A stretch of 64,000 nt of DNA, taken from Fusobacterium ulcerans (GTDB taxonomy: Bacteria; Fusobacteriota; Fusobacteriia; Fusobacteriales; Fusobacteriaceae). A program made the position numbers and the translations under genes. The stretch's first letter is position 1, and every line of letters starts with the position of its first letter. Below are positions 52,021 to 62,910 of the stretch, one piece after another. The notes beneath the pieces are model-generated. The model ran no database searches, was not told the DNA's origin, and saw only the letters and a list, made by a program, of their open reading frames with translations. The stretch lies in assembly GCF_003019675.1 (NCBI RefSeq), contig NZ_CP028105.1, positions 3,364,282-3,428,281 of the forward strand. Reading direction: 5' to 3'.

Positions 52021-53514
52021 ATGATAAAAGAAAGATTACAAAAATTAGCTATTGAATTAGGACATCCTCCTCAAGCTTATCTCTATGCTAGAATATCCAG
52101 AGAAGATTACAAGGATGAAACTAATCCACAACATGCCATTGAAAGTCAACTTTCTATTTTAAGAAGAGTTGTTAGTGAGAATAACCTTAATGTATATAAA
52201 GAAAAAGCTGAAATAGAAAGTGGTGTAACTGCTGAAGATGCACAAAGAGAAATTCTTGAACTTATAAAATCTAGAACTATAAATATATTAATAATTAAAG
52301 ATTGGTCAAGATTTGCAAGAAATAGAGCTTGGGCTGAAAAAATGCTTGATTATGCTGAGTTATTTAAAAAAACATTTATTTTATATTCTCTTTCAGATAG
52401 GGAGGGAGTATATAATCCAGTTGCTAGAATGTATTGGGATTTAAATAATGTATTTAATGCGCAATATGTTAGAGATATCGTATCTAAGATGAAAACAGCA
52501 AAAGAAGAAAGTGCTAAGCAGGGATTCTATATGACTAGACTCTTTGGTTATATGAGAGTAAATAAAAAAACTTACCCTGACACAGTAGAACCTCTAAAAG
52601 CACAGATTGTAAGAGAGTTACATGATTTATTTGATAAAGGTAAGTTTAAAAATAAACACCAAATGTTAGACTACTGCAAAGAAAAATATCCTCAATATAA
52701 GTTTGACTATACACGAATTGATAGTTTCTTCTTTAATCCTGCATATAAAGGAACTGTTATATATGGGAAAGTTAAAACATACAAAGGAAAAATAATAATG
52801 GAAAATACTGAAGAAGAAATAATTGAAGTAAATAACTCTCCAAATATTATTCCTCTGATTCCTCCAGCTCTTTGGGATAAAAACAATCTTAAACTAAGAC
52901 AGGTTACAGAAGTATATAGAGCAAAAAGTGAGGGAGCATATTTGTTTTCTGGTAAAATCTTTTGTTATTGTGGTTCAAAAATATATGGAAATGAAGAATA
53001 CTACAAATGCAATTCAAATTCTATAAATGAAAATCATAAGCATTCAAATAATAAGATTATATGTGACTGGAAACCAAAAAGAGTAGAGGTTTTAGAAAAC
53101 TATATCCTTGATAAAATAATTACTGAATTTAATCATATTGAACATTGTAATACCTCTTTGGATGATGAAATAGAAGCTCAACTTGAATTTTTAAATGAAA
53201 ATATTGACAAATGTAATAAATACATTAAAAACATTAAAGAAAGTACTAAAATTGGTATTTACACACCATTAGAAGCAAAAAAAGAAATAGAAAATATAAA
53301 TAAAGAATTATACAGACTTGAAAAAGAAAAAAAATCTCTTGAAGAAAAGAAAAAACAACAAAGTTTAGATATAAATAAAGAAGAAATATTTAAATTAATT
53401 ATTGAATATAGCAAAAAAAATAATAGAGTTATGCTTAAACGATTGCTTAATTGCTATATATCTAGAATAGTGTTTTTCAATTATTTTAATGCTGAAATTT
53501 ATACATATTTTTAA
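52021..53514 (+). CDS. Large serine recombinase, probable phage integrase
   Basis: 497 residues: resolvase domain with nucleophile Ser26 (YLYARISRED), IESQLSILRR, ILIIKDWSRFARN; recombinase domain (TRLFGYMRVNKKTYPDTVEP, FNPAYKGTVIYGKV); zinc ribbon (IFCYCGSKIYGNEEYYKC); and a C-terminal coiled coil (LYRLEKEKKSLEEKKK) typical of directional integrases. It is the last gene at the right edge of the prophage, the usual position next to an attachment site. Confidence 0.9.
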   Translation: MIKERLQKLAIELGHPPQAYLYARISREDYKDETNPQHAIESQLSILRRVVSENNLNVYKEKAEIESGVTAEDAQREILELIKSRTINILIIKDWSRFARNRAWAEKMLDYAELFKKTFILYSLSDREGVYNPVARMYWDLNNVFNAQYVRDIVSKMKTAKEESAKQGFYMTRLFGYMRVNKKTYPDTVEPLKAQIVRELHDLFDKGKFKNKHQMLDYCKEKYPQYKFDYTRIDSFFFNPAYKGTVIYGKVKTYKGKIIMENTEEEIIEVNNSPNIIPLIPPALWDKNNLKLRQVTEVYRAKSEGAYLFSGKIFCYCGSKIYGNEEYYKCNSNSINENHKHSNNKIICDWKPKRVEVLENYILDKIITEFNHIEHCNTSLDDEIEAQLEFLNENIDKCNKYIKNIKESTKIGIYTPLEAKKEIENINKELYRLEKEKKSLEEKKKQQSLDINKEEIFKLIIEYSKKNNRVMLKRLLNCYISRIVFFNYFNAEIYTYF

Positions 53515-53545
53515 AAATCCCCAGAAATTTACTTCTGAGGATTTT
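53513..53545. terminator. Bidirectional terminator at the right prophage edge
   Basis: AAAAATCCCCAGAA (53513-53526) pairs with TTCTGAGGATTTTT (one mismatch) and has A- and T-runs outside. It lies between the convergent recombinase and host gene and could also include the attachment core. Confidence 0.75.
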
Positions 53546-54110
53546 TTTCTATGTATTCAATTACTTTAAAAGTTCTGCCATCAAAAGCTAAATGATCTTT
53601 TTTCTTTTTAGGATGATATAAAACCATATAATTAATATTATAATCTGATTTAAATTTTTCCAATTTATTCTTTTCCCCATATATCTCTATATGATCTTTA
53701 AATAAAGTATATTCAAACTCTTTTAAATCTTTTTTTAAATCTTCTATTTCTCCAATATAAGGTAATAATACAGAAAAAGAATCTGCATTCTCTGTAAAAC
53801 CTCTCAATAAAGCATTTACTATAGTAGTATCAAGAAACCCATTTTCAACACTTAATTGTCTCATTACTTTTCCCGCTTTTAAAAGATTAAATAATGTCTT
53901 TTTCTCTTTATATTTTTTATACTTTTCTCCATAATCTTCTAAAAAATCAGAGTAAGTATAATCAATTGGAGAAATATCTATTCTAGAAGCTACAGTTTCA
54001 AGTTTTGCAAATTCTCCTCTTTTCAATCTTCCAACTAAAGAAACAGATAATTTTTCTTTTAATTCTTTTTCAGTATATTTATTTAATAGTTTTTCATAAA
54101 TAATTGCCAT
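53529..54110 (-). CDS. Hypothetical protein, third gene of a host operon
   Basis: 193 residues, mostly helical (NKYTEKELKEKLSVSLVGRL, KVMRQLSVENGFLDTTIVNA), with a C-terminal alpha/beta segment (YMVLYHPKKKKDHLAFDGRT). No family is recognised. Its ATG begins one base after the HD-gene stop, so it is translated with it. The 3' end touches the prophage edge, so part of its C-terminus could derive from insertion. Confidence 0.65.
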   Translation of the reverse strand: MAIIYEKLLNKYTEKELKEKLSVSLVGRLKRGEFAKLETVASRIDISPIDYTYSDFLEDYGEKYKKYKEKKTLFNLLKAGKVMRQLSVENGFLDTTIVNALLRGFTENADSFSVLLPYIGEIEDLKKDLKEFEYTLFKDHIEIYGEKNKLEKFKSDYNINYMVLYHPKKKKDHLAFDGRTFKVIEYIEKNPQK

Positions 54111-55140: not shown

Positions 55141-55180
55141 TGTTAAACCACCTCGTATAATTTTTTGTCTCTTCTATGAA

Positions 55181-55209
55181 ATTATACACCAAATAAGTGG
55201 TTCTGTACA
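55181..55209 (-). promoter_or_regulatory. Promoter of the META-HD operon
   Basis: Minus strand TGTACA (55209-55204), 17 bp, TATAAT (55186-55181). The following 55210-55543 stretch is A/T-rich with no gene or structure that I recognise. Confidence 0.65.
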
Positions 55210-55543
55210 GATTAACAAATTATATTTCTTTTATAAATTCACACAGCCCTATAATCAACCAAAGTCTATTTTGATTGTATAATTCACTTCATAGTTATGC
55301 TGAAGATTATTTGAGTTAGAATAATCCACTTTTTAATTTAGCCATAAGAAAATTATATCCTCCATTTTAGTGTCTAAAATTTTGAGGTGCAGTCCAATTA
55401 TTATCACTGCTTATTTTTCATATATAATTGACATTGATTTTTTTTATTGAAACTCCTTCTTTTCTTCTATTTTTTAATAATTTTAATTTAATAAATTAAT
55501 TCTCATCTTCTAAAACTTATATATTCATCTATAAAATATATTA

Positions 55544-55572
55544 TTGCATAAACGAAATTTATGATATATAAT
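55544..55572 (+). promoter_or_regulatory. Promoter of the structured leader/small peptide unit
   Basis: TTGCAT (55544-55549), 17 bp, TATAAT (55567-55572). Transcription would begin near 55579, just before the first hairpin. Confidence 0.7.
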
Positions 55573-55578
55573 TATATT

Positions 55579-55705
55579 AAGAAGAAATTCTTAGACGCAT
55601 TGCCCCCCGGCGATGTATACGTCAACTAATTTTCCTTCCAATAATTTTTTATCTGACCAGTAAAAAACTATTGGAAGGAACTCCAAATTAAAAGGAAGGG
55701 AAAAA
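55579..55705 (+). ncRNA. Structured leader RNA of unknown class
   Basis: A GC-rich stem CATTGCC-CCCC-GGCGATG (about 55597-55614), flanked by GACG/CGTC that can extend it, stands out in A/T-rich DNA. It is followed by a 20-bp hairpin with one mismatch (TTCCTTCCAATA arm at about 55631, complement near 55661-55680). I do not recognise a riboswitch family. It could be a cis-regulator of the tiny ORF or a small RNA. Confidence 0.5.
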
Positions 55706-55843
55706 ATGGAAAAAATATTATTGCTTATTATTGCTGTTTCAATAGCTTTTGTTATTAAGAGTTGGATTTATTCTGCTTTTATTCCACTTTTTTTTCTTAT
55801 ATTATTATTAATCTTTATTCCAAGCTTAATAATAAAAAAATAG
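55706..55843 (+). CDS. 45-residue hydrophobic peptide
   Basis: ATG 55706 follows AAGGAAGGGAAAAA. The product is almost entirely hydrophobic (EKILLLIIAVSIAFVIKSW, then FIPLFFLILLLIFIPS) with a Lys-Lys end, one or two membrane spans. Its size resembles KdpF-like or type I toxin peptides. The structured leader suggests controlled synthesis. No known family can be claimed. Confidence 0.5.
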   Translation: MEKILLLIIAVSIAFVIKSWIYSAFIPLFFLILLLIFIPSLIIKK

Positions 55844-55909
55844 ATTTTCAGCTTTCAAATTTAATTAAAGAACACTCTTGTATATTATCTTTCATCATAC
55901 TTACATAAA

Positions 55910-55957
55910 AAATGAACCCTTGTCATTAGATTATCTCTAATAGTTTGGGTTCATTTT
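55910..55957. terminator. Bidirectional terminator between the small peptide and the sirtuin
   Basis: AAATGAACCC (55910-55919) pairs with GGGTTCATTT, with an inner ATTAGA/TCTAAT stem and T-runs outside. Confidence 0.75.
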
Positions 55958-55966
55958 AATTTATTT

Positions 55967-62167: not shown

Positions 62168-62400
62168 ATAAAAAAACCGTTCTTAAAATAAGAAGACGGC
62201 ATAAAAATACCTTATCCGTCCTCGCAGATATAGAATAAATCAATCTTTGGCAGGTCTCCTGACTTGACTTCATTTTACTTGCAAACCTTCCCAGCCGTGA
62301 GCCAGTGGTGCTTTGCTTTCATCCATCTTACAGTGGCGGGACCGTGCAGGATTTCAACCTGCTTCCCTTTTAATCAAATGAACCATAGATTTCTATTATA
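62168..62400 (-). ncRNA. Cobalamin riboswitch of btuFCD with terminator
   Basis: The minus-strand RNA has the class marks: GGGAAGCAGGTTGAAATCC, then CGGTCCCGCCACTGTAAG and the B12 box GTCAGGAGACCTGCC (complement near 62250-62267). Downstream, GACGG/CCGTC (62194-62220) can compete with a terminator in which CCG-TTCTT pairs with AAGAACGG before seven T (62168-62197). Cobalamin binding should reduce transport gene expression. Confidence 0.9.
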
Positions 62401-62416
62401 TTTATATTTTTGATTA

Positions 62417-62639: not shown

Positions 62640-62649
62640 CTGTGCGTAA

Positions 62650-62910
62650 TAAAATATATTTAGGTGCTTTTATAAAGCTTAATAGAGGAAGCAGGGTGAA
62701 AATCCCTCACAGCGAGAGCTGCTGTATAGTGGACGAAATCACATTATGTCACTGGGAAACTGGGAAGGCGTGAGAGTAGGATGAAACTGAGTCAGAAGAC
62801 TTACCAAATAGTCATATATTTTGTTTAAAAAGCTTTTTTGCTTATTAAACATATTTTTAAATTGACTCTCTAGTAAGGTAGGATCTCTATTTTATTAGAG
62901 TTTTTTTATT
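62650..62910 (+). ncRNA. Cobalamin riboswitch of btuB with terminator
   Basis: GAGGAAGCAGGGTGAAAAUC-type start (from about 62685), then GTCACTGGGAAACTGGGAAG (62747-62766) and the B12-box-like GAGTCAGAAGACTTACC (62790-62806). A terminator follows: CTCTA (62885-62889), TAGAG (62896-62900) and seven T. GGTAGG (62877-62882) can pair with CCTACC (62930-62935) across the terminator as a possible antiterminator. Confidence 0.88.

Follow-up and report, generated by a model that had tools for sequence, protein, structure and literature searches.

Few descriptions exist of fusobacterial small proteins and toxin-like RNA modules, and the listings of our literature searches included none of the present type. 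FoxI and FoxJ are reportedly fusobacterial small RNAs (sRNAs), FoxJ being sigma-E dependent to judge by the title of its report, and VcdRP of Vibrio cholerae is said to be a dual-function sRNA that carries a short open reading frame (ORF). The timP/TimR system of Salmonella combines the mRNA of a short hydrophobic inner-membrane peptide, preceded by a long 5' untranslated region, with a divergent sRNA gene upstream that has its own terminator (excerpts of PMC7667032). The tisB/IstR-1, shoB/OhsC, zorO/OrzO, and dinQ/AgrB pairs of Escherichia coli join a divergent arrangement to a long toxin leader, and complementarity between antitoxin and leader extends over at least 18 nucleotides (nt) (excerpts of PMC4147584). 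Here we analyze an element of comparable layout in a 64,000-nt stretch of Fusobacterium ulcerans (contig NZ_CP028105.1, positions 3,364,282 to 3,428,281), referred to below as the window. It consists of a putative mRNA, RNA-Y, in which two hairpins (H1 and H2) precede the frame of a hydrophobic peptide, accompanied in other copies by RNA-X, a putative divergent RNA gene.

RNA-Y is a lineage-specific gene with a structured leader, H1 followed by H2, ahead of the peptide, and it forms a small module that occupies chromosomal gaps. We favor, tentatively and at somewhat less than even confidence, the view that RNA-Y is a type-I-toxin-like mRNA for a single-helix membrane peptide, whose translation would be limited by RNA structure or by a putative repressor RNA. 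In this model, a strong promoter would drive the mRNA, RNA structure, a pairing RNA, or both would keep translation of the peptide low, and release of synthesis would let the peptide act on the inner membrane. The data show the anatomy, the conserved fold of the RNA, the conservation of the frame, the number of copies, and the insertion and decay of the module; we infer that RNA-Y is transcribed, that its peptide is toxic and acts on the membrane, and what its repressor, if any, would be. Toxin-like module behavior is suggested because there are seven copies at two loci, with loss of the peptide in two, signs of insertion, and a divergent RNA-X in six of the seven. The peptide agrees with the small hydrophobic membrane peptides of type I systems in having 45 residues, a grand average of hydropathy (GRAVY) of 2.0, and a predicted single helix.

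A first-pass annotation had described a promoter, two hairpins, and a 45-residue hydrophobic peptide at 55544-55843; all are present at these coordinates (Table 1), and as anatomy its proposal of a regulated small-protein gene is well supported. The promoter that it called clear is conserved in all seven copies, with TTG.AT and TATAAT spaced by 17 nt just 5' of the RNA start, but its consensus is weaker than that word implied, the -10 hexamer being perfect and the -35 hexamer matching at three of six positions. It was not picked up by a generic promoter scan, which returned 13 promoter-like sites in the region compared with 11.5 expected from shuffles; we call it because of its conservation across copies and not for the strength of its consensus. 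The A/T-rich block upstream, a similar version of which lies inverted upstream of RNA-X in other genomes, may act as what we take to be an UP-element-like sequence.

The GC-rich stem-loop and the 20-bp hairpin of the first-pass annotation are both conspicuous in their surroundings. H1 has a GC content of 63%, against 28.9% for the window, and carries one of three runs of six C/G found in the entire 64 kb, while no inverted repeat of the window other than H2 has arms of at least 19 nt, at most one mismatch, and a loop of 3 to 12 nt. The folding energy of the leader is -34.7 kcal/mol, compared with -18 +/- 3.3 in 200 dinucleotide shuffles (z = -5.05). In an alignment of the seven copies, 95.4% of cells are paired, versus 38-56% for slid structures. 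A covariance search of related genomes had been suggested, and H2 indeed shows two-sided compensatory change, at three pairs, with loop and arm sequences that differ among copies; its six two-sided cells are reached by 6 of 500 shuffles, and the number of two-sided pairs, three, is matched by 73 of 500. In H1, 98% of cells are paired and changes are one-sided only, and the 5-bp helix at the 5' end is nearly invariant, four of its five pairs never varying, so it carries no information on pairing. Resting on seven related sequences, the covariation is support for the fold and not proof of it.

Copies are designated by genome (G000 is the window genome) and by a suffix for locus a or locus b. The peptide is intact in five of the seven, namely all four locus-a copies and G002b, with 51-78% identity to the window copy; the G001a frame stops two residues further on. 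The good start ascribed to it holds, a purine-rich Shine-Dalgarno sequence preceding the ATG in all five peptide copies, and among 59 ATG ORFs of 35 to 60 amino acids (aa) in the window it alone has a GRAVY of at least 1.8. AlphaFold, given a five-row alignment, predicts one long helix over residues 2-44 (mean predicted local distance difference test score 87.8, predicted template modeling score 0.42). Conservation of the small frame, the other check suggested at first pass, is evident in the five copies: there are no indels over 45 codons, and variable columns at codon positions 1, 2, and 3 number 24, 13, and 20 of 45 each, lowest at position 2 (P = 0.02). In neutral simulations with 20-34 changes, the frame stayed open and equally nonpolar in 0.1-4% of runs. 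Between pairs of locus-a copies, identity is about 70-95% through leader and frame and falls to about 35-57% past the stop. Weak promoters and frames are common in AT-rich DNA, and on that account the hairpins of this A/T-rich intergenic sequence might be due to chance and its hydrophobic frame spurious; this is very improbable in view of the seven copies at two loci, the covariation, the frame conservation, and the uniqueness of both H2 and the frame in the window.

BLAST of the element against 61 related genomes gave strong matches outside G000 only in G001, G002, and G007; at E <= 0.001, 38 of the 61 gave a match of some kind, and those beyond the strong ones were short A/T-rich stretches and were disregarded. 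The seven leader copies were made into a covariance model, which, run against genomes of the genus, family, and phylum, found the leader on the forward strand seven times in four genomes (4 of 12, 4 of 61, and 4 of 98, respectively), its weaker reverse-strand rows being the palindromic H2 itself. A peptide profile matched five places in the 98 phylum genomes, all in the four that bear the leader. The clade to which the element is restricted is probably the Fusobacterium varium/ulcerans group. Weak rows of a looser peptide search of the genus (for example in G005, at 2.4e-4 and with an internal stop) were taken as chance, as were all 51 stretches fitting the leader pattern, 45 in wider genome contigs and six in viral contigs; the 45, which have titles, are spread over scattered phyla, and this pattern search may leave out nearby records. 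L037, fetched as a weak match, is low-complexity sequence. Plasmid and phage searches gave no match, and alignment of the peptide against the wider genome and viral contigs gave no confirmed relative.

At locus a, in G000, G001, G002, and G007, the module lies between a gene for a META-domain lipoprotein and sir2 (both named from Pfam), separated from sir2 in G002 by extra genes that are presumably insertion-sequence-like. In G003, G004, G005, and G006, four of the eight module-free genomes of the genus, the META and sir2 genes have no module between them and are separated by about 40-90 nt; their order differs in G008, G009, and G010, and a sir2 search of G011 gave no match at the cutoff. Because the two genes nearly adjoin in module-free relatives, versus a gap of 826 bp here, the module looks to have been inserted at locus a in an ancestor of the four genomes. 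At locus b, in G001, G002, and G007, the module is near an ATP-binding cassette (ABC) operon that we read from its frames as peptide/nickel type; G000 has no close copy of the locus-b ATPase (best match 46%). Two locus-b copies, G007b and G001b, have lost the peptide frame and retain the promoter, H1, H2, and a downstream terminator-like hairpin; their 160-200 segments are 97% identical.

This retention of promoter, hairpins, and terminator-like hairpin in the absence of a peptide frame fits RNA-Y as a dual-function or mainly regulatory sRNA with the peptide as an optional second product, which we regard as the main and close rival of the toxin reading, though less likely than not. The C-rich loop of H1 would then act in trans by pairing to G-rich ribosome-binding sites on other mRNAs, and H2 would stabilize the RNA; the rarity of six-C/G runs in so AT-rich a window points the same way. 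However, G001a has a degenerate C-run, all four copies at locus a conserve the peptide, and loss of the frame is equally well explained as decay of a toxin gene. Another explanation is that the peptide is an ordinary small membrane protein, such as a stress protein or transporter accessory, with 5' hairpins that would do no more than shield the mRNA from RNases. The stable 5' hairpins, good Shine-Dalgarno sequence, and conserved frame are compatible with such a protein, as is the position of the locus-b module beside the ABC operon, but the locus-a neighbors (META lipoprotein and Sir2) are unrelated, and loss of the peptide in two of seven copies together with restriction to one clade would be unusual for a housekeeping accessory. 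We consider this explanation doubtful.

The possibility raised at first pass that the leader is a riboswitch or attenuator, sensing a ligand to control the peptide, is very unlikely. The leader is structured and covarying and lies directly 5' of the Shine-Dalgarno sequence, as such a device would. Yet it occurs in only four of the phylum's genomes, before one peptide family or before nothing, which leaves two copies without a gene to control; the loop and arms of H2 vary in sequence, and no U-run follows H1 or H2. It has no Rfam match at the gathering threshold or at E <= 10 save chance hairpin matches. The only Rfam matches at gathering are two divergent cobalamin riboswitches (RF00174) about 6.5 kb away, at 62232-62402 on the minus strand (114.6 bits) and 62645-62822 on the plus strand (78.7 bits), some 240 bp apart.

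In six of the seven copies, the opposite strand upstream of RNA-Y has a similar promoter, TTGNAT-17-TATAAT or TATACT, and beyond it about 130-170 nt and then a terminator-like hairpin, an arrangement from which we propose RNA-X as a putative divergent RNA gene. In G001, an extra 78-aa ORF (L033 2356-2592) lies between the META gene and RNA-X; L031 has a sequence that resembles it by eye and is seemingly degenerate. RNA-X as a divergent antitoxin was examined by RNAduplex, contiguous-complement, and direct-repeat tests, none of which yielded anything conserved. RNAduplex energies reflect long A/U-rich ladders; they are low relative to shuffles in two of six copies (G002a, 1 of 100; G001a, 3 of 100), and noncognate pairs of RNA-X and leader score as well as cognate ones. 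A weak antisense promoter-like site matching at 9 of 12 positions lies near +150, inside the frame, in three of the four locus-a copies.

Of the functions offered at first pass, a type I toxin is still the closest analogy, and several results weigh against it. No antitoxin was identified: the complementarity between RNA-X and leader was not clear of shuffles in any peptide-bearing copy, and the extended complementarity that marks the divergent type I class was not found in these copies. The scores were reached by 2 of 40 shuffles in G007a and 18-36 of 40 in the others, against 0 of 40 in G007b and 3 of 40 in G001b, the two copies without the peptide. In G007b, RNA-X has an 18-nt match to the 5' arm and loop of its own H2, the single most suggestive exception; this copy is without the peptide, and the match could be chance or a relic. 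The window copy keeps the peptide, but unrelated sequence replaces the RNA-X stretch, and a second RNA-X elsewhere in G000 was not seen, the matches there being at promoter level only. No conserved antisense promoter stands out among the copies, in which the positions of such sites differ. A pure toxin mRNA also leaves unexplained the two copies that keep the leader without any peptide. The ratio of nonsynonymous to synonymous change in the peptide is equivocal (0.16 to 1.4) because I/L/V/F exchanges dominate, and searches of the peptide against Pfam, NCBIfam, PHROG, and PADLOC gave nothing below an E value of 0.15, a chance level. In favor of the toxin reading, sequestration of the start codon is predicted in part: the AUG is paired in the full mRNA in four of the five peptide copies (unpaired probability 0.04-0.06) and open in the leader alone in those four (0.74-0.90), but codon-shuffled frames leave the AUG of these four only modestly more open (0.21-0.31, with large spread), in G002a, the remaining copy, the AUG is open (0.60), and pairing of the Shine-Dalgarno sequence in the full mRNA is the same as in codon-shuffled controls. 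The element might instead be a new family of mobile, divergently arranged twin sRNA genes of the varium/ulcerans clade, in which the H1/H2 RNA is itself regulatory, the membrane peptide is optional cargo, and control is other than by classical antisense pairing; we think this improbable.

Table 1. Features of the element and of nearby insertion-sequence-like gene pairs (window coordinates unless a sequence is named)
Feature	Position	Strand	Basis or remark
RNA-Y promoter, TTGCAT (55544-55549), 17 nt, TATAAT (55567-55572)	55544-55572	+	Sequence; recurrence in seven copies
A/T-rich block 5' of the -35 hexamer	55516-55543	+	Conserved in seven-copy alignment
RNA-Y 5' end, putative start near 55579, 5-bp hairpin AAGAA/TTCTT	55579-55592	+	Alignment
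H1, GC-rich stem-loop	55594-55623 (conserved core 55598-55615)	+	C-rich loop (CCCC in the core; CCCCCC run, 55603-55608)
H2, 20-bp hairpin	55632-55680	+	20-nt arms, 95% complementary
Shine-Dalgarno sequence GGAAGGG	55694-55700	+	Sequence
45-aa hydrophobic peptide, MEKILLLIIAVSIAFVIKSWIYSAFIPLFFLILLLIFIPSLIIKK	55706-55843	+	ORF, ATG start
Inverted repeat I2, T-rich DNA after	55909-55957	Strand-neutral	Arms 77% complementary
Gap between META-lipoprotein gene and sir2, holding the module	55141-55966		826 bp
Insertion-sequence-like gene pairs	L031 3606-4814, 5044-6252; L034 873-2081; L032 5171-6213		

Downstream of the peptide, the terminator-like repeat I2, which the first-pass annotation missed and which is absent from the output of a simple terminator scan, is likely a bidirectional terminator that RNA-Y shares with sir2, a gene convergent with it. 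Some 2 kb away from the locus, the window encodes a 497-aa large serine recombinase (52021-53514, plus strand; Pfam Resolvase and Recombinase) beside a 193-aa protein without a Pfam match (53529-54110, minus strand), a pair that is possibly the end of a mobile element. In G002 and G007, the module has nearly identical, insertion-sequence-like gene pairs encoding 80 and 296 aa close by, each pair probably representing one transposase, either disrupted or expressed by a programmed frame change.

Neither the RNA (Rfam) nor the peptide (Pfam, NCBIfam, PHROG, and PADLOC) belongs to an annotated family, and we found no description of the element in the open-license literature. Like VcdRP, RNA-Y would be a small RNA with a short ORF, but the two share no homology, and a regulatory activity of RNA-Y is hypothetical. 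It differs from the sigma-E-dependent FoxJ in having a sigma-70-like promoter, and a term search of the FoxI/FoxJ paper gave no match for varium, ulcerans, small protein, or dual-function (PMC11005410). We found no sequence relationship between the element and timP/TimR, and in contrast to that system, as excerpted, complementarity here is at chance in the peptide-bearing copies and RNA-X is missing from the window copy (PMC7667032). Nor do the peptide-bearing copies reach the complementarity of at least 18 nt given for the E. coli pairs in the excerpted text (PMC4147584). The element is compact, repeated, and limited to one lineage, and its copies differ in whether they have the peptide and whether they have RNA-X, which offers natural experiments for telling the role of the RNA from that of the peptide. 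Judged by its sequence, it appears to combine an RNA and a peptide without earlier description in a small structured-leader gene for a membrane peptide, a kind of gene that is already known.
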